From an uncultured Clostridia bacterium (GTDB lineage: Bacteria; Bacillota; Clostridia; Oscillospirales; CAG-272), in the NCBI GenBank assembly GCA_946040935.1, contig CAMGCN010000001.1, positions 1-15,396 of the forward strand: 15,396 nt of DNA. Direction: 5' to 3'. The translations under genes and the position numbers were made by a program. This document shows, one piece after another, positions 360-15,396 of the stretch (the first letter of the stretch is position 1; every line of letters starts with the position of its first letter). The notes beneath the pieces were generated by a model. It did no database searches. It had not been told where the DNA came from and was given only the letters and a program-made list of their open reading frames with translations.

Positions 360-917
360 TTATGCTCTTGACAAGTATTCGCCCGTTCTTGTATCTATCT
401 TGAGCTTTTCGCCTTTTTCGATAAAGAGCGGCACTTTGATAACCGCGCCTGTTTCGAGCGTGGCGGGTTTAAGGGTGTTCGTCGCGGTATTGCCGGCAAA
501 ACCGGGATCCGTATCTGTTACTTCAAGCTCGACGAACATAGGCGGCTCGACTGCGAAAACATTTCCTTTATAGGAAACGACCTTGCACATATCGTTTTCT
601 TTTACGAACTTGAAATTGTCCTGAAGAATGTTTGCGCCGATCGGTATCTGTTCGTAGCTTTCCATATCCATGAAATAATAGAGATCACCGTCGTTGTAAA
701 GGTACTGCATTTCCTTTCTGTCGACGATGGCGTTTTCAAACTTGTCGGTAGGGCTGAAAGTCTTTTCGACCACAGCGCCCGTGATGACATTTTTAAGCTT
801 TGTTCTTACGAAAGCCGCGCCCTTTCCGGGTTTGACGTGCTGAAACTCGATAACCTGAAGTACATTGCCTTCACTCTCGAAAGTAATTCCGTTTTTGAAA
901 TCACCGGCTGTTACCAT
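360..917 (-). CDS. efp: Translation elongation factor P
   Basis: 185 residues, the normal EF-P length. EF-P is a cytoplasmic tRNA-shaped protein that binds between the P and E sites and relieves ribosomes stalled on polyproline. Three beta-barrel domains are visible: a KOW-like N-terminal domain (1-65) with the PGKG loop (30-33), a central OB domain (about 68-127), and a C-terminal OB domain (about 130-185) ending GEYLSRA. Lys32, the tip residue modified in other bacteria (5-aminopentanol in Bacillus, beta-lysine in E. coli), is present. No modification enzyme lies in the window, so the modification type cannot be told. A GGAGGA Shine-Dalgarno lies 8-9 bases before the ATG. The gene has its own promoter (959-987) and a terminator (311-342), so it is expressed at least partly apart from the pepP operon upstream. 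Confidence 0.97.
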
Positions 918-958
918 TATTATTGTCCTCCAAATGATTATACATTATATTCACATAT

Positions 959-987
959 ATAATACACTAATGCGCGTATTTTTTCAA
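959..987 (-). promoter_or_regulatory. Sigma-A type promoter of efp
   Basis: On the minus strand, TTGAAA (987-982), a 17-base spacer and TATTAT (964-959). Transcription would start near 952, giving a leader of about 35 bases with the GGAGGA ribosome site. A second AT-rich hexamer (TATAAT, around 945-950) lies just downstream but has no matching -35. Confidence 0.7.
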
Positions 988-1004
988 GTATTTTTTTCTA
1001 AAAA

Positions 1005-2051
1005 TCAAATTTCTATCAGGTTTTTGGGCGCTCGGGTGAGAATCTCCGCGCCGTTTTCGGTTATATACGCCATATCCTCTATGCGGACGCCGTATTTTCC
1101 CTCGATATATATACCCGGCTCGACTGTGACGACATTGCCTGTCTTAAGCTCTTTTTTGCATTTGGGCGAAAGCCGCGGCTCTTCGTGGATATACAGTCCC
1201 ACTCCGTGACCGAGACCGTGACCGAATGTGCCCGGATATTTTGCGTCTATAATTCTACGCGAGACCGCGTCTGCCTCCGAGCAGACAACGCCGGGGGCGA
1301 GCATTTCTTCCGCCGCCTGCTGTGCCCGGAGCACCGTTTTGTATACCCTTTTCATTTCTTCGTCTGCTTTGCCGAGGACGATCGTGCGCGTCATATCCGA
1401 GCAATAACCCTTATATCTCGCGCCGAAATCGAGAGTGAGAAAGCCTTTTTCCAGCTTTACGTCGCGCGGCGTGCCGTGCGGCATGCTCGAGCGTTTTCCC
1501 GAAACGGCGATGGTTTCAAAGCTCACGCCGTCGGAGCCGTGGCTTCGCATATAGAACTCGAGGTGCAGGGCAACCTCTTTTTCAGTCATGTCGGGATTTA
1601 TAATTCCCAAAAGGTCGTCGAAGGCGGCCTCGGCAATTCTCTGTGCCGAGATGATACATTCTTTTTCCCTTTCGTCCTTGCGCTCGCGTATTTCATTGAT
1701 TTTTTCGCCCATTCCTATGAAATCTGCATTATGCAGTTTTTTATATCTTCGCAAATCCGAGCAGGTGACATAGTTATCTTCAAAAGCGATTTTTTCCGCT
1801 CCTTCAAGAGCGTTTTTCAAGTCGCCTGCGGAGGAAAAGAGAGATACCTCCACGACGCCCGCCGCCTGACTTTTTGCCGCCTCTATATAGCGTGAGTCGG
1901 CGAGCAGCAGCGCACCTTCCTTTTTCACTATCAAAAAGCCGTCTGTAAAGTCAAAGCCCGTGAAATAAAACTGATTTAACGGGTCGCAAATAATAGCCGC
2001 GTCGCAACGTTCGCCGATAACGCCGCGCAGTTTTTCAATTCTTTTCTGCAT
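1005..2051 (-). CDS. M24 Xaa-Pro aminopeptidase (aminopeptidase P family)
   Basis: 348 residues, typical of the short Firmicute PepP/YqhT-type enzymes, cytoplasmic dimetal peptidases that remove an N-terminal residue in front of proline. The N-terminal creatinase-like domain covers about 1-120. The catalytic pita-bread domain (about 128-345) has all expected metal ligands: Asp208 (LTLDFGA), Asp219 (YCSDMTRT), His282 (GLGHGVGL), Glu311 (TVEPGIY) and Glu325 (RIEDMAY). The second conserved histidine, His289 (YIHEEP), is also present. The ATG overlaps the upstream TIM-barrel gene by 17 bases and has GAGGTG in front of it, which suggests translational coupling. Its place directly upstream of efp is a common Firmicute order, and the pairing makes sense because EF-P and PepP both deal with proline-rich peptides; that link is inference. 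No terminator is seen after the TGA stop. Confidence 0.95.
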   Translation of the reverse strand: MQKRIEKLRGVIGERCDAAIICDPLNQFYFTGFDFTDGFLIVKKEGALLLADSRYIEAAKSQAAGVVEVSLFSSAGDLKNALEGAEKIAFEDNYVTCSDLRRYKKLHNADFIGMGEKINEIRERKDEREKECIISAQRIAEAAFDDLLGIINPDMTEKEVALHLEFYMRSHGSDGVSFETIAVSGKRSSMPHGTPRDVKLEKGFLTLDFGARYKGYCSDMTRTIVLGKADEEMKRVYKTVLRAQQAAEEMLAPGVVCSEADAVSRRIIDAKYPGTFGHGLGHGVGLYIHEEPRLSPKCKKELKTGNVVTVEPGIYIEGKYGVRIEDMAYITENGAEILTRAPKNLIEI

Positions 2052-2886
2052 ATGTGCACCTCTTCATAAAGAGCGCGTCACGCGCCTGCGTGCCTGCCGA
2101 CTCGCATATAATGCGAGGACAGAGCCCCTCTTTTACTATAGCCTCGCCGAGAGGCTCAAAATTCGGGCCGTATGTCGTGTCGTCGAATGTGAGGTGCTGT
2201 TTTTCTCCGCCGGGTACAGTGTATTCTATTTTTGAAAAATGACAATGGAGGTTTTTCGCCTTTTCGTCGCCCAGCGCTTCGCCTATTTTACAGAACACGC
2301 GTCTGTAATCGTCCGCGGCCGTGAATACTCCGCCGAAATCGCGCGCGTTCAGGTGCCCGAAGTCGACGACGGGGCATAGTCTGTCGCTTACCTTGCAAAT
2401 CTCTATTACCTCGTCGAGGGTGCCGAGCTGATTTACCTTGCCCATTGTTTCTATTCCGAGCCGTATTCCGTCGTCGGGAATTTCGTCTACAACACGTGAC
2501 ATGGTATCTTTCGCGAGGGAAAGAGCCTCCTCGCGGCTAATTTTAGCCGCAGAGCCGGAATGAATAACTATTGTGTCGGCGTTGATTGCGCGCGCCGCCT
2601 CGAGACTTTGTTTTATATACTCGATACTTTTCAGTCTTTTTTCCGGGTCAACGCCGGAAAGGGAAATAAAGTACGGGGTGTGAAATGAAGTTAAGATGCC
2701 GTTTTCTCTCGCCTCTTTTCCCATTGCGGCAAAGGTCTCGAGCGAACCGTGGATTCCCTTTCCCGCCGAATACTCGTAAGCGTCGAGTCCGTATTCCTTT
2801 AACCATGAAAAAATCTGAACGGTTTTTTTGCCGCCCGAAGCGTAAAAGTCCTCGGGATTTCCCGAAGGTCCGAATGTTGCTTTCAT
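2035..2886 (-). CDS. Endonuclease IV-like TIM-barrel protein (AP endonuclease family 2)
   Basis: 283 residues, close to E. coli Nfo (285). Nfo cuts DNA 5' of abasic sites with three zinc ions. The ligand set is recognisable and nearly co-linear with Nfo numbering: His69 (FHTPYF, with Tyr72), His109 (VIHSGS), Glu146 (GIETMGKVNQLGT), Asp175 and His178 (VVDFGHL), His216 (HCHFSK), His231 (QHLTFDD) and Glu262 (IICES). The Nfo D-x-H pair reads Lys229-Gln-His231 here, so one zinc ligand seems replaced. That fits a divergent clade annotated only as TIM barrel protein or sugar-phosphate isomerase/epimerase, and activity on abasic DNA is not certain. The start codon directly follows the yqeG stop (TAAATG), with an AAAGGCGG site inside the end of yqeG. 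The 3' end overlaps the peptidase gene by 17 bases. Confidence 0.85.
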   Translation of the reverse strand: MKATFGPSGNPEDFYASGGKKTVQIFSWLKEYGLDAYEYSAGKGIHGSLETFAAMGKEARENGILTSFHTPYFISLSGVDPEKRLKSIEYIKQSLEAARAINADTIVIHSGSAAKISREEALSLAKDTMSRVVDEIPDDGIRLGIETMGKVNQLGTLDEVIEICKVSDRLCPVVDFGHLNARDFGGVFTAADDYRRVFCKIGEALGDEKAKNLHCHFSKIEYTVPGGEKQHLTFDDTTYGPNFEPLGEAIVKEGLCPRIICESAGTQARDALFMKRCTYAEKN

Positions 2887-3396
2887 TTAGTCAAATCCGC
2901 CTTTCTTTTTTTGATATGCCCGAAGAACGGGTACTTCAAGTCTTCTCTTGAAACGAAAAAATACAGTCAGCTTGTCCTTTATGGGCTTGACGAGAAATAC
3001 CGTAAGACCTGCCCGCTTTCCCGCAAAAACATCGGTAAACACCTGATCGCCGATTAAGGCGGTGTTTTTTCGGTCGCTCCCCATATCTGCCATCGCCTTT
3101 TTTATGTCGCGGATAAAGGGCTTTCCGCTCTTTGCATACGCAGGGTAATTAAGACTTCTGTTAAATTTTTTTACTCTTTCCCATTCATTGTTTGAAACAA
3201 ACGATACTTTTATTCCCGCCGCCGCCATGCCGTCAAACCACGCCTGCGCCGCGGGAGTGGGGATAGGGTCGTCATAGGTTACTATGGTGTTGTCTATATC
3301 CATGACAAGCGCTTTTATACCCAGACTCAAAAGAAACTCGGGCGTAATATCGGATATTGTATCATAATAATAATCGGGCAAAAACTTTCTATACAT
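2887..3396 (-). CDS. YqeG-family HAD IIIA phosphatase
   Basis: 169 residues, the usual YqeG length, and probably soluble. The haloacid dehalogenase motifs are intact: motif I DIDNT with nucleophile Asp33 and Asp35, motif II Ser68 (FVSNN), motif III Lys92 (SGKPF), and motif IV GDQVFTD with Asp117 and Asp122. The YqeG family is a conserved Firmicute group predicted to hydrolyse small phosphomonoesters; its physiological substrate is not firmly known. It is the first gene of a minus-strand operon with the TIM-barrel and Xaa-Pro aminopeptidase genes. The ATG has AAAGGA about 8 bases upstream, and a promoter lies at 3422-3450. The basic C-terminal tail (from about 140, rich in Lys and Arg) is a common family feature. 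Confidence 0.93.
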   Translation of the reverse strand: MYRKFLPDYYYDTISDITPEFLLSLGIKALVMDIDNTIVTYDDPIPTPAAQAWFDGMAAAGIKVSFVSNNEWERVKKFNRSLNYPAYAKSGKPFIRDIKKAMADMGSDRKNTALIGDQVFTDVFAGKRAGLTVFLVKPIKDKLTVFFRFKRRLEVPVLRAYQKKKGGFD

Positions 3397-3421
3397 AAAT
3401 ATTCCTTTTTGATTTTTTTAC

Positions 3422-3450
3422 ATTTTACCACCAAATATCTGAAAGTGCAA
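3422..3450 (-). promoter_or_regulatory. Promoter of the yqeG operon
   Basis: On the minus strand, TTGCAC (3450-3445), a 17-base spacer and TAAAAT (3427-3422), some 26 bases before the yqeG start. The -10 matches consensus at 5 of 6 bases and the -35 at 3 of 6. It lies in the 113-base divergent gap shared with the DUF4830 gene, for which I see no comparably good plus-strand promoter. Confidence 0.6.
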
Positions 3451-3509
3451 GCATATCATACCCAAAATGCGAATAAGAATGAGATACAGATAACGCACGG
3501 AGGTTTATT

Positions 3510-4001
3510 ATGTTTATTTGTTCAGTTCGCGCGGCGAGCGTGAAATTCGTCGGCGCGGTAGTATTATCGGTGGCGGCACTTGTCGCCCTCGTCGCTTTCG
3601 TCCCCGAAAGCGGAGCGAAGAGCACCCAGACTGCGGCAGGAGCCGCAGGCAGCGAATTTGTCTATTCGGGCATAAAAAGCAACGAGGACAGGGTGAAATT
3701 TCTTTCCCAGTTCGGCTACGAGGTTGAGAGCGAACCTGAAGAGGAGGAAGAAATAAAGATACCCGATAATTTTGACAAGGTTTATATAGGTTATAACGAG
3801 ATACAGAAAAATCAAGGCCTCGACCTCTCGGAATATAAAAACAAAAAGGTGACTCGCTATACATATAAGGTTACAAACTACGAGGGCTACGACGGCGAGG
3901 TGCTTGCCAATATCATCATATGGCGCGACCATGTTATAGCGGGGGATATATGCTCAAAAGACACGGGAGCAAACGGCTTTGTACACGGCTTTCAGAAATA
4001 A
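3510..4001 (+). CDS. DUF4830 domain protein, membrane-anchored
   Basis: 163 residues. One hydrophobic helix (about 11-31) near the N-terminus has basic residues before it and suits a signal anchor, which would put the rest outside the cytoplasm. A low-complexity Ala/Gly/Ser linker (36-48) leads to a small C-terminal domain (about 57-163). It carries family hallmarks of clostridial DUF4830: NEDRVKFLSQFGYEV, a Glu run (76-81), IPDNFDKVY, KVTRYTYKVTNY and the ending GFVHGF. The domain has no known function. GGAGG (3499-3503) sits 6 bases before the ATG. The gene is divergent from yqeG and is followed ten bases after its stop by the structured element 4011-4130, which probably ends its transcript. 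Confidence 0.85.
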   Translation: MFICSVRAASVKFVGAVVLSVAALVALVAFVPESGAKSTQTAAGAAGSEFVYSGIKSNEDRVKFLSQFGYEVESEPEEEEEIKIPDNFDKVYIGYNEIQKNQGLDLSEYKNKKVTRYTYKVTNYEGYDGEVLANIIIWRDHVIAGDICSKDTGANGFVHGFQK

Positions 4002-4010
4002 CGGCGTCGG

Positions 4011-4130
4011 GGTGCTGCAAAAAAACAGTGCAGATAGTTTAAGGGAAAATATATTTGATTTGCGGCGTCGTATTTTCCGACGCCGCAAACCGATTTTCGT
4101 TCTGCGCGTTTTTTCAGCACCTTTTTGTTT
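4011..4130 (+). terminator. Large nested stem structure with T-tract (terminator or structured RNA)
   Basis: Three nested stems can be drawn by hand. The outer one pairs 4011-4034 with 4101-4121 (about 21 pairs, one wobble, small bulges; GGTGCTG with CAGCACC at the base). The middle one pairs GAAAAT (4045-4050) with ATTTTC (4093-4098). The inner one is a perfect 12-bp stem, 4059-4070 with 4078-4089, around a 7-base loop. TTTTTGTTTT (4122-4131) follows directly, as in an intrinsic terminator. It lies between the DUF4830 stop and the methyltransferase promoter. It is far bigger than a normal terminator, so a small RNA, an attenuator or a remnant inverted-repeat element remain possible. Confidence 0.65.
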
Positions 4131-4145
4131 TAATCAAAATAAGTA

Positions 4146-4174
4146 TTGACGGAAAAGTTTTGTTATGCTATGCT
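4146..4174 (+). promoter_or_regulatory. Extended -10 promoter of the rRNA methyltransferase gene
   Basis: TTGACG (4146-4151), a 17-base spacer and TATGCT (4169-4174), with the extended -10 dinucleotide TG at 4166-4167. The predicted transcription start, about 7 bases on, coincides with the ATG at 4181. Confidence 0.7.
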
Positions 4175-4180
4175 GATGTC

Positions 4181-5314
4181 ATGGAAAACAATGAGATTAT
4201 TACTTACACGGCGACCTGTCTTTTCGGACTTGAAAAATTCTTGGGGGAGGAAATTGATTCTCTCGGGTATAAGCGAATTGAAACTATCGACGGCAGAGTT
4301 ACGTTTGAAGGGGATATAGGCGCTGTTGCAAGATGCAATTTGCACTTAAGATACGCCGAGAGACTGTTTATAAATCTCGGCTCTTTTTCGGCTTCTACCT
4401 TTGACGAGCTTTTTGAGGGCACGCGCGCCCTGCCGTTTGAGAGGTGGATAGGAAAGGACGACGCGTTTCCCGTCGGCGGACATTCCGTAAAAAGTTTACT
4501 TACGAGTATTCCCGACTGCCAGAAAATTGTCAAAAAGGCGGCAGTCGAGCGTATGAAAGAAACATATCGCACCGACTGGTTTAACGAAACGGGAGTAAAA
4601 TATCAGATCGAGTTCTTCATTTTGCGTGACAGGGCGACGGTCATGATAGACACATCGGGCGTCGCGCTTCATAAGCGGGGCTACCGCCCTGCCGCGCTTG
4701 CGGCGCCTCTTAGGGAAACTCTTGCCGCGGCCATGGTGAAGCTCTCCCGTCCGAGAGAAGACGTGCTGCTTTGGGATCCCATGTGCGGTTCGGGTACGAT
4801 ACCGTGCGAGGCGGCGCTTATGATGACAAACACCGCGCCCGGACTTTCACGCTCGTTTGCGGCACAGGAGTTTGAATCTGTTCCTAAAGAAATCTGGAAA
4901 AACGCGAGGGAGGAGGCGCTCTCTCTTATAAAGAAAAGCGATTTTCGCGCCAACTGTTCGGATATCGACCCTCACGCCGTAGAGACGGCGCAGGCGAATA
5001 TTTCCCGCGCGGGGATGGACAAGTATGTAAAGTGTTTTTGCGCCGACGCGCTGAAAATAGAAACCGGAGGCGTGCGCGGTACGGTGGTGTGTAATCCGCC
5101 TTACGGAATACGGCTTTTTGACAGAGAGCAAACGGAAAGACTTTACCGTGAAATGGGAAAACATTTTGCCACGCTCGACAGGTGGCAGATATATATTCTC
5201 ACGGCATGCGAGGATTTTGAGAGACTGTACGGAGCCCGCGCCGACAAAAAGAGGCGTCTTTACAACGGCATGATAAAATGCGGATTTTACCAATTTTTCA
5301 AAAATAAAAAATAG
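4181..5314 (+). CDS. THUMP-containing 23S rRNA guanine-N2 methyltransferase, RlmL/YpsC type
   Basis: 377 residues from the chosen start, close to Bacillus YpsC. The family uses SAM to methylate a guanine N2 in 23S rRNA (E. coli RlmL acts on G2445); the exact site here is inferred. Domains in order: an N-terminal ferredoxin-like plus THUMP domain (about 1-158, starting ITYTATCLFGLEKFLGEE), then a Rossmann methyltransferase. The latter shows motif I DPMCGSGTIPCEAA (199-212), acidic SAM-binding residues in CSDIDPHA (259-266) and catalytic NPPYG (305-309). An upstream in-frame ATG at 4055 would add 42 residues that overlap the 4011-4130 structure and do not resemble the family, so 4181 is preferred. 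No Shine-Dalgarno precedes 4181, and the promoter spacing suggests a leaderless mRNA. No terminator is seen after the TAG. Confidence 0.93.
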   Translation: MENNEIITYTATCLFGLEKFLGEEIDSLGYKRIETIDGRVTFEGDIGAVARCNLHLRYAERLFINLGSFSASTFDELFEGTRALPFERWIGKDDAFPVGGHSVKSLLTSIPDCQKIVKKAAVERMKETYRTDWFNETGVKYQIEFFILRDRATVMIDTSGVALHKRGYRPAALAAPLRETLAAAMVKLSRPREDVLLWDPMCGSGTIPCEAALMMTNTAPGLSRSFAAQEFESVPKEIWKNAREEALSLIKKSDFRANCSDIDPHAVETAQANISRAGMDKYVKCFCADALKIETGGVRGTVVCNPPYGIRLFDREQTERLYREMGKHFATLDRWQIYILTACEDFERLYGARADKKRRLYNGMIKCGFYQFFKNKK

Positions 5315-5317
5315 CTG

Positions 5318-5346
5318 TTGCCTCGGTGTTTTTAATTTGTTATAAT
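5318..5346 (+). promoter_or_regulatory. Promoter of the DUF4874/DUF4832-SLH gene
   Basis: TTGCCT (5318-5323), exactly 17 bases, then a perfect TATAAT (5341-5346), starting four bases after the methyltransferase stop. The predicted start near 5353 gives a leader of about 36 bases with a GAGGA ribosome site (5379-5383). Confidence 0.8.
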
Positions 5347-5388
5347 GAAATTACAGAAAACAGGAATATCCAAACAATGAGGAATACC

Positions 5389-8300
5389 ATGAAAAAAATT
5401 ATCTGTATCCTATTATCCCTTGTGACGGTACTTTTGTCCGTCACTGTGAATGTCGGAGCGTCCGACGGGCTTATCGACCAGATTGAAAACGGAGCTGTGA
5501 TAAGCTATCTTGACTCGACAGCGTCTCTGTCGATGCCCTCCTGCGGAAGCGGAGCGGGAATAGAAGTATATCCTAAACCGGGTGAAAGCTGGGCGTTTTT
5601 CCCGACTTCATATTCCTTTGTTATGATAAATCTGCGCGGATATTCGGGACAGTCGCGCGAGGACGGAAAGGACGTGCCGCTTGACGAGAGCTTTTTCACG
5701 GGACTTGAGCAAAGCCTGAAAAACGCGCGCAATTCGGGGGCGGTATTGGGAATACGCTTCCGTTTTGACGCGCTCGGCGAGACAAACAAAGAACCCGACT
5801 GGGACAACATGGTTCAGATGTTTGTCGATATACGCGATTCGGGACTTTTCAAAAAGTACGGCGAGGTTATTCATTACTGCGAGCTGGGCACATTCGGCGC
5901 ATTCGGCGAGCAATGGGGCACGAGGTACGGCGATTACGGTTACAGCACCGAGCTTATCGACCTGTATTTGCAGATTTTTCCCGAACATGTGCCGATACTT
6001 CTTCGCACGGGCGGAAGAATCACCAGATGGGCAAACGACAAACTGGGAGAAAACTATTGCGGTCAGTCAACCATAAATATGCTTACCCGGGTAAAGGAAA
6101 AATACCCCGATAAGAGAAACGGAAAGATAAACTATTATTCTCAAGACGGTAAGGACTTTTCAACGGGTAATTATCTGTGGGAGGACATCTCGCGTCTTGG
6201 CTATTACAACGACGGCTATATGGGAACAAACTGGGACTACGGTACTTATTCCAACCGTGAAAACGAGACCGCTTTTCTCGCCGCCCAGGAAGACAACGCC
6301 TACGGAGGAGAGTTTTCGGGCGACAGGTTTTTACAGATATATTACGGCAACGACTACACGACTTGCTGGTGGCCGAAAAACGGTATTCCCGAGATGTATT
6401 ATACCCACCTTTCCTACCTGCACGGCGGATATATCTGGGGAGAAAAGAGCGAATCTCACTCATATGCGGGAAACGCCGATACTATCACAGAGTCGGAGCT
6501 TGACGGCTACTACAAATCGGCAAAGACTTTTGCAGACCGCGTTGAATATGTTTATGAGCAGATAGGCGCGGAAAAGCTCATGGGCACGGTTACGGTTACC
6601 GAGGTAAAGGGCACGTCCTCGTCGGGCGATACGGTTGTTACCGGATATCAGGTTAACTATATTGCGCCCGGTTTTGAAAGCTCTGTATTTACCGAGGAAA
6701 TCGCGCAGGCGGTTGAGAAAAAGCTCGGAAAATCGCTTGACCTTTCTGAATATTACGGTATTAACAACAAAAAATTCGTATTAGATCATCTGGGATACCG
6801 TTTTGTCGTTCGTTCTTCAAAGATGTCACAGACAGTGAACGCCGGCGGAAAGCTCAAAATAGAGCTTGAAATAGACAACACGGGGTTTTCAAAGCTTATC
6901 GGAGAGGAAAGCGCGCAAATAGTAATATCAAACGGGGAAAACAAATATATCAGCACTATTGAAAACGTATCTCCGACCGAGTGGAAATCCTTTGAAAAGC
7001 ATACTGTTTCGGCAGAAATCGATATGCCCGAATATATTTCGGCTGGGGATTGGAAGGTATATCTTCGCATATCAAACGAAAATATGCCCGAGTGGTCGCG
7101 TGCGGCGGTTCCGTTTGCAAACGAGGGTATGTACGACGCAGATCTCGGCGCAAACCTCATCGGAAAAATCAAAGTGGAAAGCGATTTCACATACTCGAAG
7201 TCAGAAGTAAAAGAAGATACCAGACCTGCAGGGTATTATCCGGAAAACCCCGAACCGAAAGAGGTAAAGGAGAATGATACCTTTTATTTCTTTGATTCCC
7301 CGTATGTATTCACTCAAAGCGGTTTATACGGCTTCAGCCTGGTCTTCAAAATCGACGGAATCGCCGAGGGAAGCAGTATAAAATTAAATAAATGGTTCTG
7401 CTCGGCAGGAGGTTATTATTCAGGGCATCAGCTCCATTCCTTCAACTATGATTTTCAGTATAGACAAAGCGACGGAAAAACCGGACACGGATATACATTT
7501 ACCGAAAACGGATACTATATCATGTACTGCCCGTTCTATTCGGTCGGCGCGTATTCAAGCCCCTCTGTCGCAGGAAAGACATCCGTGGGTGCGCTCAGCT
7601 TTAACAACAGTTCGGCTTGTTATAAGGACAGCTCTCTGGAGCTCAACGGAAACAATGTTACCATAACGTCGATAGCGCTTATCGAGGGCGCGCCCGACGG
7701 ATATTCGGTATCTTTTGAGACCGAGAATAATAAATATGAATACAGCGGAAAATACGGATTTTCCAATACAAACGGCGCGTATGCAGAAAGGTGTCAGTTC
7801 AAACGCGCAGAGTCGCTGCTCTCGATGTACGACGGAGAGGATATAACCGGAAACGAGCATTTTGAGGACGGGATAAGAACCGAGTGCGTCGGTTGGACGA
7901 CCAAGCCGGGCGACAGAAGATGCGCCATAGGGGAGGACTATGTTCCTCTCGGAAACGAAAAGTTCTATCCCGACAGAATAATTTTGACAGACAGCTTTGT
8001 CGCAGATGAGAGAACGGTCGAGATAAACGGAGGAATCGACAGTCAGGGGGTAATCTATTCCTTTGACGGCGAGAGAAAGGCGACGGTAGGCGAGTCGGGT
8101 TGGAGAAGCAATATCAGCGAGGGCGCAAATCTTTGCGGATTTATCATAATCCCGTCGGCGGTTATATCCGACGGCAAAAAATACACGGTTACTTCAATAG
8201 ACGACCTTTGCACAGACGGCATTACGGGCATTATCATCCCTTCGAGCGTTACAAATATATCTGCGCGTGTATTTGAAGAAAATGAAGAGATTATTATCTA

Positions 8301-8925
8301 CGGTTACAAAAACAGCGCGGCAGAAAAATTCGCCGTGGATAACGGATACGAATTCCTTCTTATGACAGAAGATTTTGACGGTGTTTTTGTTGATATCGAA
8401 AGGGGAGACTGGTACTACTCTGCCGTAAGATTTGCATATAAAAACAATATAATGAGCGGTATGGAAGAGAATGTTTTCGCGCCTCTTGAAAAGACGACGC
8501 GCGCCATGTTTGCAAAGATTCTTTATAATATTGAAGGAAAACCCGACATGACGTATTATGCGAACGTGTTTGACGACGTCGAAAAGAATTCCTGGTACCG
8601 CGACGCAGTTGTTTGGGCGGAGGAATACGACATAGTCAAGGGAATGACAAAATACACCTTCGCGCCCAATGATATATTGACGAGGGAGCAGCTTGCCGCA
8701 ATGCTATACAGGTATGCAAGATATAAAGGCGAGGATATTTCCTATACCAAAGATATAAAGGATTACTTCTCGGACGCGTCAAAAGTGTCCGACTGGGCGT
8801 ACGGCCCCTTCTGCTACGCCTATGAAAGAGGCTATATAACGGGAGTCAGCGAAACGGTTCTCTCACCGGACACATCTGTTACGCGCGCCCAGGTGGCTTC
8901 GGCTATGAAGAGATTTTGTTCATGA
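5389..8925 (+). CDS. Secreted DUF4874/DUF4832 glycosidase-like protein with LRR segment and three SLH domains
   Basis: 1178 residues from ATG 5389, chosen because GAGGA lies 5 bases upstream and MKKIICILLSLVTVLLS begins a clean signal peptide (cut near Ala24). The upstream in-frame ATG at 5326 lies between the -35 and -10. Domains: a DUF4874-like barrel (about 55-220) with CELGTFGAFGEQWG, whose Glu165 and Glu174 are candidate active-site acids; a DUF4832-like part (about 225-595) with RLGYYNDGYMGTN, HLGYRFV and DNTGFSKL; an unassigned module (645-767) shared with the next two genes; a degenerate beta-repeat (about 770-865) with VGWTTKPG; a BspA-like LRR segment (about 885-990) ending in the cap YGYKNSAAEKFAVDNGYEF; and SLH domains (about 998-1050, 1058-1112, 1125-1177). 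The SLH triplet should bind pyruvylated wall polysaccharide, putting the barrel on the cell surface. A glycan substrate is inferred only. Confidence 0.88.
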   Translation: MKKIICILLSLVTVLLSVTVNVGASDGLIDQIENGAVISYLDSTASLSMPSCGSGAGIEVYPKPGESWAFFPTSYSFVMINLRGYSGQSREDGKDVPLDESFFTGLEQSLKNARNSGAVLGIRFRFDALGETNKEPDWDNMVQMFVDIRDSGLFKKYGEVIHYCELGTFGAFGEQWGTRYGDYGYSTELIDLYLQIFPEHVPILLRTGGRITRWANDKLGENYCGQSTINMLTRVKEKYPDKRNGKINYYSQDGKDFSTGNYLWEDISRLGYYNDGYMGTNWDYGTYSNRENETAFLAAQEDNAYGGEFSGDRFLQIYYGNDYTTCWWPKNGIPEMYYTHLSYLHGGYIWGEKSESHSYAGNADTITESELDGYYKSAKTFADRVEYVYEQIGAEKLMGTVTVTEVKGTSSSGDTVVTGYQVNYIAPGFESSVFTEEIAQAVEKKLGKSLDLSEYYGINNKKFVLDHLGYRFVVRSSKMSQTVNAGGKLKIELEIDNTGFSKLIGEESAQIVISNGENKYISTIENVSPTEWKSFEKHTVSAEIDMPEYISAGDWKVYLRISNENMPEWSRAAVPFANEGMYDADLGANLIGKIKVESDFTYSKSEVKEDTRPAGYYPENPEPKEVKENDTFYFFDSPYVFTQSGLYGFSLVFKIDGIAEGSSIKLNKWFCSAGGYYSGHQLHSFNYDFQYRQSDGKTGHGYTFTENGYYIMYCPFYSVGAYSSPSVAGKTSVGALSFNNSSACYKDSSLELNGNNVTITSIALIEGAPDGYSVSFETENNKYEYSGKYGFSNTNGAYAERCQFKRAESLLSMYDGEDITGNEHFEDGIRTECVGWTTKPGDRRCAIGEDYVPLGNEKFYPDRIILTDSFVADERTVEINGGIDSQGVIYSFDGERKATVGESGWRSNISEGANLCGFIIIPSAVISDGKKYTVTSIDDLCTDGITGIIIPSSVTNISARVFEENEEIIIYGYKNSAAEKFAVDNGYEFLLMTEDFDGVFVDIERGDWYYSAVRFAYKNNIMSGMEENVFAPLEKTTRAMFAKILYNIEGKPDMTYYANVFDDVEKNSWYRDAVVWAEEYDIVKGMTKYTFAPNDILTREQLAAMLYRYARYKGEDISYTKDIKDYFSDASKVSDWAYGPFCYAYERGYITGVSETVLSPDTSVTRAQVASAMKRFCS
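7321..7689 (+). repeat. Shared unassigned module, copy 1
   Basis: Residues 645-767 of the first surface protein. Landmarks: FSLVFKIDGI, then YTFTENGYYIMY, VGALSFNN, and the end NNVTITSIALIEG. The same landmarks recur in the two downstream proteins. It is predicted beta-rich, with no family I can name. Confidence 0.65.
8380..8922 (+). other. Three SLH domains (cell-surface anchor), first surface protein
   Basis: Three consecutive S-layer homology repeats with the usual pattern of an F-x-D start, W-Y/W-A, an internal G-(Y/I)-(I/M)-x-G turn and T-R-A/E-(Q/M). They read FVDIERGDWYYSAV...TTRAMFAKIL, FDDVEKNSWYRDAV...LTREQLAAML and FSDASKVSDWAYGP...VTRAQVASAM. Confidence 0.93.
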
Positions 8926-9014
8926 TTTTTGTGATTGCAGCTTCGCTTTTGACATTATGCACAATAAAATTACTAATACTTTGTACATAAAGCATAATGT
9001 TAAAATCACAAAAA
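8926..9014 (+). repeat. Long imperfect inverted repeat between the first two surface genes
   Basis: TTTTTGTGA (8926-8934) and TTTTGACATTATGC (8947-8960) pair with TCACAAAAA (9006-9014) and GCATAATGTTAAAA (8992-9005). That is 22 of 23 positions, with a 12-base bulge in the left arm and a 31-base centre. It begins right after the TGA of the first gene. A run of A, not T, follows on the plus strand, so it is not a standard terminator for that gene. It ends three bases before the extended -10 of the next gene and could be an operator, RNA-stability hairpin or transcript-end structure. Confidence 0.6.
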
Positions 9015-9016
9015 AA

Positions 9017-9025
9017 TGATATAAT
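9017..9025 (+). promoter_or_regulatory. Extended -10 element of the second surface gene
   Basis: TGATATAAT (9017-9025) combines the TG extension with a perfect TATAAT. No good -35 lies 16-18 bases upstream (the bases there are ATGTTA). A TTGACA at 8949-8954 lacks a partner -10 at normal spacing. The start would fall near 9032, giving a leader of about 22 bases with GGAGG at 9043-9047. Confidence 0.55.
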
Positions 9026-9053
9026 TAATACAATAAGATAATGGAGGTACATT

Positions 9054-12000
9054 ATGAAAATCAAAAGATTATTGTCATTAGTGTTGGCGCTCACCATGAT
9101 TGCGTCGGTTTCGACGTTTTGCGTGACATCTAATGCTGATGACCTTCTTTTCAATTCTAATCCCAAAGCAGTCACTTTTACTGCGAGCGAAGAATCGGCA
9201 ACTATCTTAAGTGATACTTTTACTCCTGATGAGGGTGCCGAAGGAATGACTCTCTGGATTCGCATAAGCGATGCAAAAGAGCCCTTCTATCTCTGTAAAA
9301 TGTCGATGACCGTTCAGACAAGAGATTTTGATTCTCTTTCGACGTACAACCACGGACAGGACGGCATAAGACAGGCGATGTGGAAAATTGACGGTAACGG
9401 AGACTATCTCTTGTACATACCTTTCAAGTACTACTCGCTCAGCCATCAGTTTGTCGGCGAAAAGGGCGACTATGTAAAGGGAATTTCGAATATTTCCGTT
9501 GCTGCCCTTGAGCTTACTTCTGCCAACAAAAATACGAGTATTTCTCTTATGGGTATCTTCAACAATCAGGTGAAAGTCTTTGACTCTTCCTTTGATGTTG
9601 AGGGCACAAAGAGCAATCACAGCGGAGAGTATATCTATAAAAACTGCGAGGTGGTACCCGACAATACCATGACGGGCATACTTGCAGGAACGATTACAAG
9701 CTCGGATGAAATGTATGATCCCGAAACGGGAAAAACAATCCACACGGGTTATCCTATCGACTATTCCGATGCAGTCAGAGAAACCTGGCAATATGCCTAT
9801 GTAGATTCGGCGCTTCCCGATGATCCCCAAAAGCCCGCAAATGTATTTACAGGCTGGACTGACAGCGAAGGCAACGCGATGATTCCTTACGGAACTAATG
9901 AGCTTTTCGCGTCCTTCGAATATGGTTCGTCGATTGCTCACACAGTTACATTCCATAACGGCGACGGAAGTGTTTTGAGCACGGTTAAAGTTATTGACGG
10001 CAAAACCGCGGTTTACCGCGGAGCGACGCCCGAAAAAGCGGGTACGGATACTACCTATTTCGTATTTAAGGGCTGGAGCACCAGTGTTATGTCTGTTACC
10101 GAAGACATGGATGTTTATCCCGAGTTTGAAGAAAAGGATATAACATATAACGTAACATATAAGATGGGTAACACTCCTATTTGCGTTAATACCGTCAAAA
10201 AGCATGAGGCTTCGGTATACGATACGGAAAAGTATGAAATACCGACCCAAAACGGTGACGTGGAGGTATATTATGAGTTTGATTATTGGGCAGACGCAGA
10301 CGGAGCGCGCGTAGATCTTTCGGACGTTGTTTCCGATATGACTGTGTATGCACACTTTGCAATGATTCCCGAAACTCAGACTTATACTGTCACCTTTGCA
10401 AACTATGACGGCACCACTCTTTGCACAAAGACCACGGGTGTTCACAGCTATGTTGAGTACGATCTCGACAATCCTGTTCGCAAACCTACCGAAACAGTCA
10501 TCTATACGTTCAGCGGCTGGGATGTCGAGGACTACAAGACGCTCCGCGAAGACGCCACCGTCACGGCGCTTTACGATGAATCTCCCGTAGGCGTAGCAGG
10601 AAGCAAGCCCGGAAAGGTAATAAACAAAACAAGCGACTTCTCGACTACGGATGAGGTAACTCTTGTAGAGGGTTATACTTTTAAGACGGATACAAAGTTC
10701 CTCACCCTTACTCTTAAGGTTGAAGGAGTGGAAGAGCCTTTCGTTCTCGGCGGATTCAGAATGAAAACCATAGCGAGAGATGAAGAAGGCGTTGCTTCAG
10801 ACTCGACCATCGACTCAAACTCTTCCGGAAATTATACGAATTTAGCTGATAAATCTGACAATTCATCTGCATTTACCTTTACCGAAGACGGATATTATGC
10901 GATTACCATTAATAAGGAAATCGTAAACTGGGAGAAAAACTATTATAACAGAATAGTAAGCCTCTCCTTCTCAAACGGCACGTCGATAGGTAAGCAGACT
11001 TCTAACCTTAACGACAATCTCAATGTTACATTCCTCGCAATGTACGAGGGCAAGCCTGATTTCACCGTAAGATATTACGGCGAAGACGGTGATTTCCTCG
11101 GTTTGGGTATTGTTGAGAACACATGTGCAAACTTCGGCGTGACAAAGCTTTTGTCTGCGGACGGAGCATATGTTGACGAGGTACCCGTAAAGGCAGAAGA
11201 CGCCGACTACAGATACAATTTCGCAGGTTGGGCGGACAGCGAAGGAAACAAGGTCGAGTATTTATGTGACAATGCCGACGTATACGCTTACTTCCTTCCC
11301 GAAATCAAAGATCCGATAACTGTTACATTCAAGAACGGCGATGAAAACGCTGCGGTTTACACCATTCCGAGAGGAAAAGGCGTTGAATACTCCGAGAAGA
11401 CTCCTATAAAACCGTCTACCGATGATTATACTTATATTTTCCGCGGCTGGACGACCGATCCTTCTAAGGTGTTGGGCACAGAGGTGGAGACGCTTCCCGA
11501 AACCTACACGGACGATGCAGTATATTACGCCGTATTCGAGCAGACAGACAGAATGTTTATCGTAAATTATACTGGCGAGGACGGAAGCGATCTCGCAACT
11601 GTTTACGTAAACAAGAAAAATCACGAGGTTGTCGGCGAAGCTCCGGCAGATCCTTTCAAGGAAGCGTCTGCTAAATATACCTATGAATTTGAAGGTTGGG
11701 TAACTGCCGACGGCGAGGCGCTTGACTTCGCTAAGGTTAATGACGATATAGTTGTTACACCCAAGTTCAAAGCTACTATTAATAAATATACAGTTACCTT
11801 CATGAACGAGGACGGAACTGCCGAGCTCGGCAAGGTGACCGTGGATTACGGTACAAAGGCTGAATTTGAAGAGCCCGTTAAGGAAAACGACAAGTATCAT
11901 AAATTCGTATTCAAGGGCTGGAGCCAGTCTGTAACGACCGTTGTTCGCGATATGACGGTAAACGCAATATTTGAGCCTGTCTTCGTCAGCCCGTTCAAGG

Positions 12001-12605
12001 ATGCGGTTGAAGGCGACTGGTACTACAGCGCAGTTCAGTATGTCTGTGAAAACGGCCTCATGAGCGGTACGAGCGCAACTACATTTGAGCCTCAGACTAC
12101 GACTACAAGAGCGATGGTAGTAAATGTTCTTTACTTCGCAGAGAATACCCCGAGCGTAGAGGGAATGAAACATCCTTTCAAGGACGTTCCTGCTAATGAG
12201 TGGTATACAAAAGCCATCACATGGGCATATAACTGCGGAGTAGTCGCAGGTAAGACTCCCGACACATTTGAACCTAATGTCAAGATTACAAGACAGGAGT
12301 TCTGCAGCATCCTTTACAGATACGCTGATAAGGTTATGTACGACGGCGTCGGATGCGATATGAAGATACCCTCATCTGACATTTCGAGCAGCACAAGCGT
12401 TTTCGCCGACAAAAACGATATCGGCGGATGGGCACAGTCTTCTATCAAGTGGTGTTTGTATGTCGGTTGTATTTCCGGCGAGACGAGAACCGTTAACGGT
12501 GTCGTCCGCAGATACCTCAAGCCCACTGACGGTATGACACGCGCTGAAATGGCGTCTATGCTCAAGAGATTTATAGGAAACGAAAAGCTCGTTAAGAAGA
12601 GCTGA
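9054..12605 (+). CDS. SLH-anchored surface protein with InlB-type beta-repeats
   Basis: 1183 residues. GGAGG sits 6 bases before the ATG. A signal peptide (MKIKRLLSLVLALTMIASVS, cut near Ala28) is followed by a shared unassigned module (65-171). A degenerate repeat comes next (about 192-290, FTGWTDSEG), then three InlB/Listeria-Bacteroides-type repeats (296-358, 364-436, 444-508). A second module copy (549-666) is followed by four more repeats (668-748, 754-830, 834-906, 911-975), and SLH domains finish the protein (about 978-1030, 1040-1093, 1115-1172). The repeats follow the pattern YTVTFxNxDG...YxFxGW...DMTVxAxFE, known from internalin B-type stalks. No catalytic domain is visible, so it looks like a wall-bound stalk, adhesin or scaffold. 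Glu and Asp are abundant and cysteines are few. It shares its modules with both neighbours, so the cluster probably grew by duplication. A terminator follows at 12652-12683. Confidence 0.9.
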   Translation: MKIKRLLSLVLALTMIASVSTFCVTSNADDLLFNSNPKAVTFTASEESATILSDTFTPDEGAEGMTLWIRISDAKEPFYLCKMSMTVQTRDFDSLSTYNHGQDGIRQAMWKIDGNGDYLLYIPFKYYSLSHQFVGEKGDYVKGISNISVAALELTSANKNTSISLMGIFNNQVKVFDSSFDVEGTKSNHSGEYIYKNCEVVPDNTMTGILAGTITSSDEMYDPETGKTIHTGYPIDYSDAVRETWQYAYVDSALPDDPQKPANVFTGWTDSEGNAMIPYGTNELFASFEYGSSIAHTVTFHNGDGSVLSTVKVIDGKTAVYRGATPEKAGTDTTYFVFKGWSTSVMSVTEDMDVYPEFEEKDITYNVTYKMGNTPICVNTVKKHEASVYDTEKYEIPTQNGDVEVYYEFDYWADADGARVDLSDVVSDMTVYAHFAMIPETQTYTVTFANYDGTTLCTKTTGVHSYVEYDLDNPVRKPTETVIYTFSGWDVEDYKTLREDATVTALYDESPVGVAGSKPGKVINKTSDFSTTDEVTLVEGYTFKTDTKFLTLTLKVEGVEEPFVLGGFRMKTIARDEEGVASDSTIDSNSSGNYTNLADKSDNSSAFTFTEDGYYAITINKEIVNWEKNYYNRIVSLSFSNGTSIGKQTSNLNDNLNVTFLAMYEGKPDFTVRYYGEDGDFLGLGIVENTCANFGVTKLLSADGAYVDEVPVKAEDADYRYNFAGWADSEGNKVEYLCDNADVYAYFLPEIKDPITVTFKNGDENAAVYTIPRGKGVEYSEKTPIKPSTDDYTYIFRGWTTDPSKVLGTEVETLPETYTDDAVYYAVFEQTDRMFIVNYTGEDGSDLATVYVNKKNHEVVGEAPADPFKEASAKYTYEFEGWVTADGEALDFAKVNDDIVVTPKFKATINKYTVTFMNEDGTAELGKVTVDYGTKAEFEEPVKENDKYHKFVFKGWSQSVTTVVRDMTVNAIFEPVFVSPFKDAVEGDWYYSAVQYVCENGLMSGTSATTFEPQTTTTRAMVVNVLYFAENTPSVEGMKHPFKDVPANEWYTKAITWAYNCGVVAGKTPDTFEPNVKITRQEFCSILYRYADKVMYDGVGCDMKIPSSDISSSTSVFADKNDIGGWAQSSIKWCLYVGCISGETRTVNGVVRRYLKPTDGMTRAEMASMLKRFIGNEKLVKKS
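9246..9566 (+). repeat. Shared unassigned module, copy 2
   Basis: Residues 65-171 of the second surface protein, directly after a short mature N-terminal strand region. Landmarks: MTLWIRISDAKEPFYLCKM, GDYLLYIPFKYYS, VKGISNISVAAL and the end TSISLMGIFNN. It is the most divergent of the five copies. Confidence 0.55.
9939..10577 (+). repeat. InlB-type beta-grasp repeats, first block (three units)
   Basis: Residues 296-508 hold three units of 60-75 residues, opening VTFHNGDGSVLSTVKV, YNVTYKMGNTPICVNTVK and YTVTFANYDGTTLCTKT. The unit closings are FKGWSTSV...DMDVYPEFE, FDYWADADG...DMTVYAHF and FSGWDVED...DATVTALYD. They match the Listeria-Bacteroides repeat pattern. Confidence 0.8.
10698..11051 (+). 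repeat. Shared unassigned module, copy 3
   Basis: Residues 549-666 of the second surface protein. Landmarks: LTLTLKVEGVEEPFVLGGF, SSGNYTN, FTFTEDGYYAITI, IVSLSFSNGTS, LNVTFLAMYEG. This is the clearest reference copy for an alignment. Confidence 0.65.
11055..11978 (+). repeat. InlB-type beta-grasp repeats, second block (four units)
   Basis: Residues 668-975 hold four units, opening FTVRYYGEDGDFLGLG, ITVTFKNGDENAAVYT, FIVNYTGEDGSDLATVY and YTVTFMNEDGTAELGKV. Each has the later G-W turn (FAGWADSEG, FRGWTTDPS, FEGWVTADG, FKGWSQSV). They lead straight into the SLH domains. Confidence 0.8.
11985..12578 (+). other. Three SLH domains (cell-surface anchor), second surface protein
   Basis: FKDAVEGDWYYSAVQYVCEN...TTRAMVVNVL, FKDVPANEWYTKAITWAYN...ITRQEFCSIL and FADKNDIGGWAQSSIKWCL...MTRAEMASML. 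The first unit is close to the first SLH of the upstream protein, which shares GDWYYSAV, suggesting a common origin. Confidence 0.93.
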
Positions 12606-12651
12606 AATAATAATTTAACTCGGCTTTTGTAAAAAAGTTCGGCAAAAAGCG

Positions 12652-12683
12652 AAAAAGCGGCACGGTAAAACGTGTCGCTTTTT
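12652..12683 (+). terminator. Rho-independent terminator of the second surface gene
   Basis: AAAAAGCGGCACG (12652-12664) pairs with CGTGTCGCTTTTT (12671-12683): a 13-bp stem with one G-T wobble and a 6-base loop. The stem ends in a T-run followed by GTGG. It lies 46 bases after the stop. Confidence 0.88.
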
Positions 12684-12692
12684 GTGGCATTT

Positions 12693-12720
12693 CAACAAAT
12701 TATATAATTGGTATTTGTTG
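12693..12720 (+). promoter_or_regulatory. Inverted repeat CAACAAAT-12-ATTTGTTG, possible operator
   Basis: A perfect 8-base inverted repeat around a TATAAT-containing centre (12703-12708). The left half recurs as CAACAAATTA at 12794-12803, just after the main -10 and before the ribosome site of the third surface gene. It may bind a regulator of this gene, but the AT-rich setting allows chance occurrence. Confidence 0.35.
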
Positions 12721-12756
12721 TAAACGCCGAAAATGAATATGGAATATTTTATTCAC

Positions 12757-12785
12757 TTGATTTTATTGTGCAAATGATTTAAAAT
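12757..12785 (+). promoter_or_regulatory. Promoter of the third surface gene
   Basis: TTGATT (12757-12762), a 17-base spacer and TAAAAT (12780-12785). The start would fall near 12792, with a leader of about 29 bases containing GGGAGG (12804-12809). Confidence 0.75.
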
Positions 12786-12820
12786 AGATATAACAACAAA
12801 TTAGGGAGGTAAAACCTATA

Positions 12821-15351
12821 ATGAAAAGATTTATCGCGCTTGTATTGGCGACGCTTATGGTTGTTGCACTTGTGCCGGGCGGCATATTTGCGTTTGATAC
12901 CGAGCCGAGCGATACAATAGTACATCAATCCGGTGTATTTTTTGACAACGCGGAGACAGTACCGCTTGACGGAACACCGCTTCAGGCAATAGGCAGCGGA
13001 GGGCTTGTCGAAAGCTATACACCCGATCCTGAGAATCAGCCGACTAACATGACTCTTCTTTTTGAAGTATCGGGAATAAGAAATCCTGTTACGTTCGGAA
13101 GATTCCATATTAACAGCCAGGGAACAGCGGGAGGTTGGATAGACTCTAATAATTCCGGCAACTACACGATGGATACGTCCTTTACCATTTCATCGGACGG
13201 ACAGTACGCATTGCAGACCGGCTTTTACTTTGTAAGCTGGGATGGTGACGGACACTTTGCTTCCGTAAATGATTTCACGCTGTTCGGAGGAACACGCGGC
13301 GTTGATTTTTCGTCTAACAACCCTGCCGCAACTGTAAAGCTCGTAGGTGTTGTTGATAACGCGCTCGAGTACGACGTTGTTTTCTGTGCAGAAGACGGCA
13401 GTGAAATCACATCTAAAACCGGCGGCTTCACAATTTGCAATAAGTGGGGCGCAAGACTTGAGCAGGTTCCTTCGCTTGTTGAGCTTTACGACGGTGAAAT
13501 TCCCACTAAGGAAGAGACCGAACAGTTCAGATATGAATATGAAGGCTGGCAGACTGCCGACGGAACACCCGTTGACTTTGCAAACTTCAGCGGAAAAGTA
13601 TATCCGAGATTCAAGGAAATTGACAAGACAAAGGCAACTGTCACGTTCAAAGACGGCGACGGCTTTGTGATAGGTGAAAAGATAGTTACAATAGGCGAGG
13701 CCGTAACATATGACGGCGATATTCCCACCAAGAGTGAGGATGATAATAATACTTACGAGTGGACGGGCGAATGGGATACTGACCTTTCCTCGATCCAGGG
13801 GGACGTTGTCGTAACCGCTCTGTTCAATACCGTGCCGAAACCCAAGTATACTATGTCTGCTCCCGATTCGGTAACTAACGAGAGCGAGCTGTCCGTAACG
13901 GTTTATCCTATAAACTTCGACGGAATGACGAACGCAACAATGACGCTCAAATATGACAACAGACTGTTCAAGGTGAGAGGATGCGCTTCTGTTGCAACTA
14001 TAGTATCAGATGAAGACGGTTTGCTCACATTAGAGGTTTCTGAAGGTGCAACAGACGGATTTTCCGTTGATTTTGACGTTCTTTACGAGGCGTTCAAGCT
14101 GAGTAAGACAACTTTGACGTCGGGCGGCTCATATGGAGTTGACGGCGAAAAGGCGGTTTATGAATACTCGATTGATTTAAGCGTGGACGGACTTATCCCC
14201 GGATTCTTCGCAGAGAGCGACGAGAGCGGAAGCATGGTTCCTCAGTCCATCCCCTCTTCGGGAAGCGTTACTTTCTATAAAAATGACGCGCCCGGATTTA
14301 CAACGACATATTGCTATACTTTGATATTCAAGGTTGAAAATCTTGACGCTCCTCTTACCATAGGAAATCTTCAGGTGACTTCAACAAAGCCTGACGGAAG
14401 CGATCAGCCGTATATGTGGTCGTCAAACTGGACTAACCCCACATACAACTATCCTTCGATAGTTACTTTTGAAGAAAGCGGCATATACAGCTATACGATA
14501 AACTCTGTTCTCGGCGGTCTCACAGGCCCCACAACGAGACTTCATTCGGTCACCGGTAACACTTTCGTAAGCGGTGATTGGGAGCTTGGAACTAACGCTG
14601 ATAACAGACCTATTGCAGTTCCTACCGAAGAGAGCGCTCTTCTCCAGGACCAGCTTAACCAGAATGCAACCGTTCAGATTATAGCTGTACTTGAGGGTAA
14701 CTTCACACCCGAGACTAAATACTATAATGTTGACGGCCAAGAGCTCGGAACTTCCGTTCATGTCTATAATGAAAGAGGAGACAGCACCGACTGGAGCAAG
14801 GCAACGGTTGAAAATCTTGTGACATACAGTGAAGATTATCTTGCAAGTTATGAGACTCCTACCTATTCAGATCCCGAAAAGCCTTATCTCCGTTACGATT
14901 TTACGGGTTGGGCTGATAAGGACGGCGCGCCGGCAACACATGTTTACAGAAGCGCAAAGGTTTACGCTACATACGATGTAGTCGATACAAGACCTGACTG
15001 CACGATCACGTTTATGAACGACGGTAGCGTTTATGACAGACAGGTTATAAAAGAGGGCGAAATGCCTGTTGTTCCCACTGTTAACCCCACTAAACCCTCG
15101 ACCGATGAATATTCTTACATCTTCCAGGGTTGGGACGCTGACGGCGACGGCAACGTCGATGAAATCACGGCGGCAACAGTAGAGGGTGCGACCTATACGG
15201 CCGTTTATGAGCAGGTTGACAGAAGATGGGAAATCAAGTACTATGCAGAAGACAAAGAGACATATCTCGGAAGTCTTTATGTTCTCGGCGAAATCGAGGA
15301 CGGAACCGAACCGACAGCTCCCGTAAAGCCTGCTGACGTACAGTATACCTA
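12821..15351 (+). CDS. Secreted modular surface protein with beta-repeats and cohesin-like domain, 3'-truncated
   Basis: The frame stays open from ATG 12821 to the contig end: 843 genomic codons with no stop. GGGAGG lies about 11 bases before the ATG. A signal peptide (MKRFIALVLATLMVVALVPG, cut near Ala24) opens the protein. Then come a shared module (78-180), two InlB-type repeats (about 183-266 and 272-338), a domain at about 343-457, a second module (500-627), and repeats at 630-725, 727-800 and 803 to the end. The 343-457 domain (ELSVTVYPINFDGMTNATM, LKYDNRLFKV, GLLTLEV) has the strand pattern of bacterial cohesins. Layout and module content match the upstream protein, so a C-terminal SLH triplet is expected beyond the contig; that is inference. 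Codons after 15351 encode adapter (CLLYTSPSPRD) and must be removed. No catalytic domain is visible. Confidence 0.88.
13052..13360 (+). repeat. Shared unassigned module, copy 4
   Basis: Residues 78-180 of the third surface protein. Landmarks: TLLFEVSGIRNPVTFGRF, NNSGNYTM, FTISSDGQYALQT, VNDFTLFGGTRG, and the end ATVKLVGVVDN. Confidence 0.65.
13367..13834 (+). repeat. InlB-type beta-repeats, third protein, first pair
   Basis: Residues about 183-338. The first unit runs from YDVVFCAEDGSEITS to YEYEGWQTADG and VYPRFKE. The second runs from ATVTFKDGDGFVIGEKIV to YEWTGEWDTD and DVVVTALF. Confidence 0.75.
13847..14191 (+). other. Cohesin-like domain
   Basis: Residues 343-457. SELSVTVYPINFDGMTNATM is followed by LKYDNRLFKVRG and GLLTLEVSEGATDGFSVDF, the order seen in bacterial cohesins (early paired strands, a YDxxLF turn, then G-hydrophobic strands). 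Cohesins bind dockerins; no dockerin is seen in the window. A structurally similar Ig-like or carbohydrate-binding domain is an alternative. Confidence 0.4.
14318..14701 (+). repeat. Shared unassigned module, copy 5
   Basis: Residues 500-627 of the third surface protein. Landmarks: TLIFKVENLDAPLTIGNL, NPTYNYPSI, VTFEESGIYSYTI, and the end NATVQIIAVLEGN. It has about 10-20 more residues before the last strand than the other copies. Confidence 0.65.
14708..15351 (+). repeat. InlB-type beta-repeats, third protein, second block (cut by contig end)
   Basis: Residues 630-843: ETKYYNVDGQELGTS...YDFTGWADKDG...KVYATYD, then CTITFMNDGSVYDRQVI...YIFQGWDADGDG...YTAVYE, then WEIKYYAEDKETYLGSLYV, which is cut off after PADVQYT. 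Confidence 0.75.
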
Positions 15352-15396
15352 CTGTCTCTTATACACATCTCCGAGCCCACGAGACGCTACGCTATC
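15352..15396 (+). other. Nextera i7-side sequencing adapter (artefact)
   Basis: Bases 15352-15370 are the reverse-complemented Tn5 mosaic end (CTGTCTCTTATACACATCT). Bases 15371-15385 are the read-2 linker (CCGAGCCCACGAGAC), 15386-15393 (GCTACGCT) match the Nextera i7 index N709, and ATC begins the P7 oligo. Genomic sequence ends at 15351. Confidence 0.98.

Follow-up and report, generated by a model that had tools for sequence, protein, structure and literature searches.

Carbohydrate-binding modules (CBMs) with a β-sandwich fold (families 4, 6, 11, 16, 28 and 35), the InlB B-repeat (Pfam Flg_new, PF09479; structure 2y5p), the C-terminal domain of the GH115 α-glucuronidases (GH115_C; PDB 5by3; PF17829) and the cohesin, dockerin and SLH proteins of the cellulosome type are the described systems closest to the element considered here. 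This is a module found in five copies (A1, B1, B2, C1 and C2) in three adjacent large proteins, A, B and C, which are encoded on the forward strand in the right half of a 15,396-base stretch from an uncultured Clostridia bacterium (GenBank contig CAMGCN010000001.1; hereafter the window). The window is one complete contig (C1) of a fragmentary genome (1.26 Mb, 242 contigs, 68% complete). The module is like the β-sandwich CBMs in size, in its predicted all-β sandwich and in its place in proteins, and shares with them a variable loop rich in Trp and Asn; it differs in that searches of Pfam and the PDB with its sequence gave nothing significant and structural scores remain at background level. It is followed by an enlarged repeat that resembles the InlB B-repeat, and the B-repeat fold is present in the predicted structure, but the enlarged repeat has about 45 residues more at its N-terminal side. 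GH115_C is the second-best match when the fold of the module is compared, below the accepted threshold, while no GH115 catalytic part is seen in the Pfam-scanned module carriers. As in cellulosomes, the genus has cohesins and type I dockerins, but there are only 1–4 dockerin hits per genus genome, and in one of these genomes (G094) the cohesin and dockerin hits both lie off module carriers.

A single domain of about 150 residues underlies all five segments, which are homologous to one another. As redrawn here they are 145–172 residues long with few fixed alignment columns; the best-kept positions among 38 copies include G97 (38/38), N137 (35/38), G42 (34/38) and Y99 (32/38) in B2 numbering. 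A hidden Markov model (HMM) built from 27 copies of three other genomes (G033, G094 and G137), with no window copy included, scores the five at 31.8–69.9 bits, compared with −0.8 for the next match in the window and 4.6 for the best of 300 shuffled window proteins. Aligned individually with a profile of 33 non-window copies, each window copy reaches an HHalign probability of 97.7–99.3%, and a profile of the five window copies recovered another six elsewhere in that genome (E values of 1e-18 to 3e-8). That the segments are merely convergent β-rich stretches between repeats draws some support from the comparison of single copies within the window, where the ten pairs give HHalign probabilities of 0.05–94% with only one above 90%. 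Because such pairs are often insignificant, homology is not provable from the window alone. Chance convergence is nevertheless ruled out by the held-out HMM, by HHalign against non-window copies and by the copies found with the first profile, and we give it next to no credence.

The proteins, the modules and the enlarged repeats behind them lie as follows in window coordinates, with scores from HMMs of the other genomes' copies.

5326..8925, forward strand: protein A, with a signal peptide (by eye), DUF4874, DUF4832, module A1, enlarged B-repeat, a leucine-rich-like part (by eye) and three SLH
7258..7695, forward strand: module A1, 69.9 bits
7699..8037, forward strand: enlarged B-repeat behind A1, E = 8.4e-6
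9054..12605, forward strand: protein B, with module B1, B-repeats, module B2, B-repeats and three SLH
9135..9569, forward strand: module B1, 66.6 bits
9567..9965, forward strand: enlarged B-repeat behind B1, E = 9.2e-6
10602..11057, forward strand: module B2, 66.1 bits, structure predicted with AlphaFold2 (pLDDT 82.4, pTM 0.77)
11055..11354, forward strand: enlarged B-repeat behind B2, structure predicted jointly with B2
12821..15394, forward strand, open: protein C, cut by the contig end, with C1, enlarged B-repeat, further repeats, a cohesin-like part, C2 and enlarged B-repeat
12905..13363, forward strand: module C1, 67.7 bits
13367..13693, forward strand: enlarged B-repeat behind C1, E = 1.4e-17
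14189..14704, forward strand: module C2, the weakest scorer among the five, 31.8 bits
14705..15022, forward strand: enlarged B-repeat behind C2, E = 3e-12

An earlier sequence-only reading of this DNA had proposed five segments sharing one ordered module in three adjacent forward-strand proteins. All five are where it put them and they do share one module, although the domain starts one or two strands earlier than was drawn. Its landmark motifs are shared but looser than proposed: by eye, N-x-S-G-N-Y is exact in two of the five copies (B2 and C1), the closing E-G is present in three (A1, B2 and C2) and A1 lacks the proline in its opening strand. Pairwise profile scores at background, which it named as an argument against a family, are indeed frequent between single copies and disappear when a copy is compared with the 33-copy profile.

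Directly behind the module lies a stretch of roughly 85–130 residues with a shared pattern. The C-terminal half of this enlarged repeat is the usual B-repeat ending, while the N-terminal half is extra; ordinary repeats of the same proteins for the most part match just the second half of the enlarged-repeat model. An HMM of the repeats of other genomes finds the enlarged repeat behind all five window modules (E values of 9.2e-6 to 1.4e-17; behind B2 from model position 38 only). Among 45 module hits in the fetched loci, four are cut by a contig end and 40 of the other 41 have a full-length enlarged repeat behind them, a count made with a repeat HMM trained on most of those repeats, so that the window test with the HMM of other genomes is the stricter one. 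The sole module without such a repeat is the first in the 1123-residue open reading frame (ORF) of locus L072. Three repeat matches that begin within the first 12 model positions have no called module directly ahead. The repeated unit is thus the module plus an N-terminally extended InlB-type B-repeat, a surface cassette of about 250 residues. The sequence-only reading had recognized the module and stated that a β-repeat follows at once, which holds in a stronger form than it was put; that domain and enlarged repeat form one unit, and that some cohesin and dockerin proteins also carry it, had gone unnoticed.

The AlphaFold2 model of B2 agrees with the β-sandwich suggested in that reading. The module is predicted to be an all-β, jelly-roll-like sandwich of the broad CBM/lectin/MAM type, with no decisive match, and the joint model of module and enlarged repeat has a pLDDT of 88.4 and a pTM of 0.83. 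The absence of a named family is likewise borne out, as neither Pfam nor NCBIfam has a match above cut-off over the modules. Across 38 module copies, 14 Pfam families appear at E ≤ 1, the best being SusF_SusE (E = 0.0086, 16.8 bits against a cut-off of 27.5), and a scan of L074 in full length places MtrC-MtrF_N within a module at E = 6.5e-5, again short of the cut-off (23.3 bits compared with 27.7). NCBIfam gives nothing across the five modules of proteins A–C, 18 PDB sequences at E values of 0.28–1.4 (lectin, TNF ligands, malectin and others) are all insignificant, and a viral structure library holds no match at E ≤ 0.001. A protein search with an alignment of 39 cassettes, which admitted just proteins of 0.55–1.75 times the query length and would miss multi-domain relatives outside this range, returned one match, a B-repeat protein (E = 3.1e-3). 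In the literature on DUF4832, DUF4874, InlB B-repeats and SLH the module is not named in titles or abstract openings, most subscription journals lying outside the search. As far as seen, the domain adds an uncatalogued member to the well-known surface β-sandwich modules, one that is narrowly distributed and, unusually, has a near-fixed partner.

Searches of proteins with single regions returned two proteins for B2 and five for A1. Relatives were seen of protein B (P0005, 58% identity) and of protein A (P0007, 66% identity) over the searched regions, and the longest contig given for each is 192,635 bases long; the A–B pair may therefore be kept together in another species. Proteins B and P0005 gave no confirmed relative in the genome contig collection.

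The 45 hits of the iterated module HMM in the fetched loci (13 in G000, 5 in G033, 8 in G137 and 19 in G094) include a few that are cut or near-identical between species. The module is present in all four genomes of the genus that were examined, with 5–19 hits each. The window's own genome has eight more hits spread over six further contigs, including two divergent or cut ones on contig C43; contrary to the sequence-only reading, the module does not define this locus. Outside the genus, an 11-copy profile at E ≤ 0.001 matched none of 142 other-genus genomes of the family and none of 397 other genomes of the phylum sample. A 38-copy profile gave weak partial matches at E ≤ 0.01 in 8 of 391 family genomes from other genera, a single one reaching E ≤ 0.001; by eye all eight look like unrelated ORFs, a judgement made with no family search on these. 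Of 393 other genomes sampled from the order, 5 are matched at E ≤ 0.001. Four of these belong to one sister family (f5) and, judging from the sequences, are probably true distant relatives; G908, also matched at this threshold, does not look like one. Matches in 2 of 390 others in the class sample were judged by eye to be chance. Because the genome samples overlap, the counts are not additive. The genome search is not blind in the family, since it recovered Flg_new in 108 and DUF4832 in 20 of 122 genomes there. Within the genomes sampled, the cassette is restricted almost wholly to one genus.

By eye, the f5 loci (L138–L141 and L143, with two ORFs each in L138 of G956 and L140 of G983) encode small secreted proteins with an unnamed domain distantly like the module. 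Most of the ORFs have a C-terminal tail that resembles an NPXTG anchor by eye, with a sub-threshold NCBIfam anchor match in one of six. HHalign compares the f5 domain (alignment A6) with the module at a probability of 94% and a score of 47.7 over 65 columns, while the best of 100 column-permuted controls scores 15.3. The f5 proteins are therefore probably distant relatives, although the permuted controls overstate the significance because the f5 set was picked via a profile match. In contrast to the module carriers, Pfam finds no B-repeat, SLH or DUF4832 in the six f5 ORFs, and neither Pfam nor NCBIfam gives a named domain above cut-off. A weak Pfam match to GH115_C (E = 0.019) occurs in one of these ORFs; with GH115_C also the second-ranked fold match of the module, two weak hints agree.

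In the window, Pfam identifies DUF4874, DUF4832 and SLH in protein A, Flg_new and SLH in protein B and just a sub-threshold cohesin in protein C. The module had been described as lying beside a glycosidase-like barrel and in stalk proteins, and the placement holds, with DUF4874/DUF4832 in the region of the putative barrel and SLH on the stalks:

5623..6009, forward strand: DUF4874 (PF16173) of protein A, E = 2.6e-08, above cut-off
6193..7122, forward strand: DUF4832 (PF16116) of protein A, within the region read as a glycosidase-like barrel, E = 1.5e-35
11787..11930, forward strand: ordinary B-repeat, the best of four Flg_new stretches in protein B, PF09479 E = 2e-11 for the whole protein
12174..12305, forward strand: the best of three SLH stretches in protein B, E = 1.6e-24 for the whole protein
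13889..14002, forward strand: cohesin-like stretch of protein C, PF00963 E = 0.0038, sub-threshold at 17.8 bits against a family cut-off of 24.1

Outside the window, 22 of the 26 carrier ORFs were scanned with Pfam (L064, the 847-residue ORF of L072, L077 and L080 being excluded); some of the scanned ORFs are truncated where the locus or contig stops. DUF4832 is found on eight of these, nine with protein A. It is combined with SLH in L027, L065, L066, L069 and L070 and with a dockerin in L063 (9e-12) and L081 (0.009, yet above cut-off in the dockerin scan), while L082 is truncated at the end of its contig. A dockerin is also present in P0010, an entry of the protein database (8e-7). Six carriers are SLH stalk proteins (L002, two in L067, two in L071 and one in L072). 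In two of these stalks, L002 and the 1638-residue ORF of L067, a calcineurin-like phosphoesterase (metallophosphatase) domain stands after the SLH, which looks unusual. Cohesins are carried by L028, which has one module, and by the scaffold-like L075 and L076, each of which combines three modules and an F5/8C domain with several cohesin stretches (four in L075, three in L076) and ends directly in a cohesin with no visible wall anchor. L068, L073, L074, L078 and L079 show just repeats, weak matches or nothing in Pfam.

DUF4832 matches number 12, 8 and 8 in three genus genomes compared with 1–3 in each of the other 17 DUF4832-containing genomes of the family, and in G033 and G094 two of the eight in each are on module carriers. 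DUF4832 genes are reported to adjoin Pel polysaccharide clusters in streptococci and clostridia (PMC7112168), and a rumen Ruminococcus metaproteome lists a DUF4874–DUF4832–dockerin protein (PMC7480376). Cohesins and type I dockerins are each above cut-off in all four genus genomes; nine of ten listed cohesin hits and three of ten dockerin hits are on module carriers, none of these in G094. At a contig end (G000:C138), a frame with a match to the enlarged-repeat portion of protein B (query 672–764) lies next to a dockerin and is perhaps the tail of another cassette–dockerin protein.

In a tree built from 37 of the 38 copies, these cluster by the class of their host, with 6 changes compared with 15.0 on average after shuffling. 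A1 belongs to a supported clade of DUF4832 copies and B1 to a supported clade of stalk copies. The window copies are scattered over the tree and are not recent tandem duplicates, although C1 and C2 sit on long branches.

The left half of the window (360–5314) is ordinary and encodes elongation factor P, an M24/creatinase-type peptidase, a xylose-isomerase-like TIM barrel, a HAD-like phosphatase, a DUF4830 protein and an RlmL/THUMP-type methyltransferase. The ORF ends at 1–40 and 15355–15396 and the start of L028 read ..YTHLTLPTKA, ..LLYTSPSPRDATL and TPKPSSAASDVYKRQ.., peptides of a kind typical of adapter remnants where contigs end. Neither the first codons of the contig nor the last residues of protein C are probably genomic.

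The loop spanning B2 residues 60–88, picked after the alignment was seen, varies in length (mean 20.7, standard deviation 5.5) and contains 6.5% Trp and 13.5% Asn, compared with 1.4% and 5.5% in 26 host proteins; a composition rich in these residues is common in sugar-binding loops. We favour, with moderate confidence, a lineage-restricted surface module that binds glycans through this loop between strands. Signal peptides, recognized by eye, would export the carriers, SLH domains would anchor them on the cell wall, ordinary B-repeats would serve as stalk and the sandwich would be the binding part, so that the module would bring DUF4832 proteins and some cohesin and dockerin proteins to a polysaccharide. 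Loop tryptophan is found mostly in stalk copies, the seven cohesin-class loops holding one in total, and this uneven distribution between host classes makes one ligand for all copies unlikely.

The same fold could instead serve protein binding or self-association, as in MAM-like or lectin-plus-repeat adhesin-like domains, joining surface proteins to each other or to a host with no sugar involved. We consider this unlikely, since structure entries for YwfG are titled as complexed with mannose or mannobiose, the loop is variable and rich in Trp and Asn, and the module is placed beside DUF4832 and on cohesin and dockerin proteins, where CBMs usually occur. A ligand-free role, in which the module spaces the domains of the stalk or stiffens it between them, would account for the near-fixed pairing with the B-repeat and for the confident joint model, and ordinary B-repeats are known stalk units. 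It fits poorly with modules near the N-terminus of stalk proteins (for example B1, C1, L067 and L071) and behind DUF4832, and with a loop whose composition differs from the rest of the domain, and appears distinctly improbable. Returning to glycan binding, a wider picture can be offered tentatively: genus-private glycan-binding modules, each fused to a positioning enlarged B-repeat, may have spread over three surface-protein classes, including both cohesin–dockerin partners, with loop types per class, and may form the targeting part of an undescribed, DUF4832-centred polysaccharide-handling machine. We regard it as possible and somewhat doubtful.

The module is a concrete, well-modelled and uncatalogued domain family with clear bounds and a near-fixed partner repeat, and is ready for naming and testing. 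It ties the uncharacterized DUF4832/DUF4874 proteins to wall anchoring and to cohesin and dockerin parts, and through it the guess at their substrate becomes testable.
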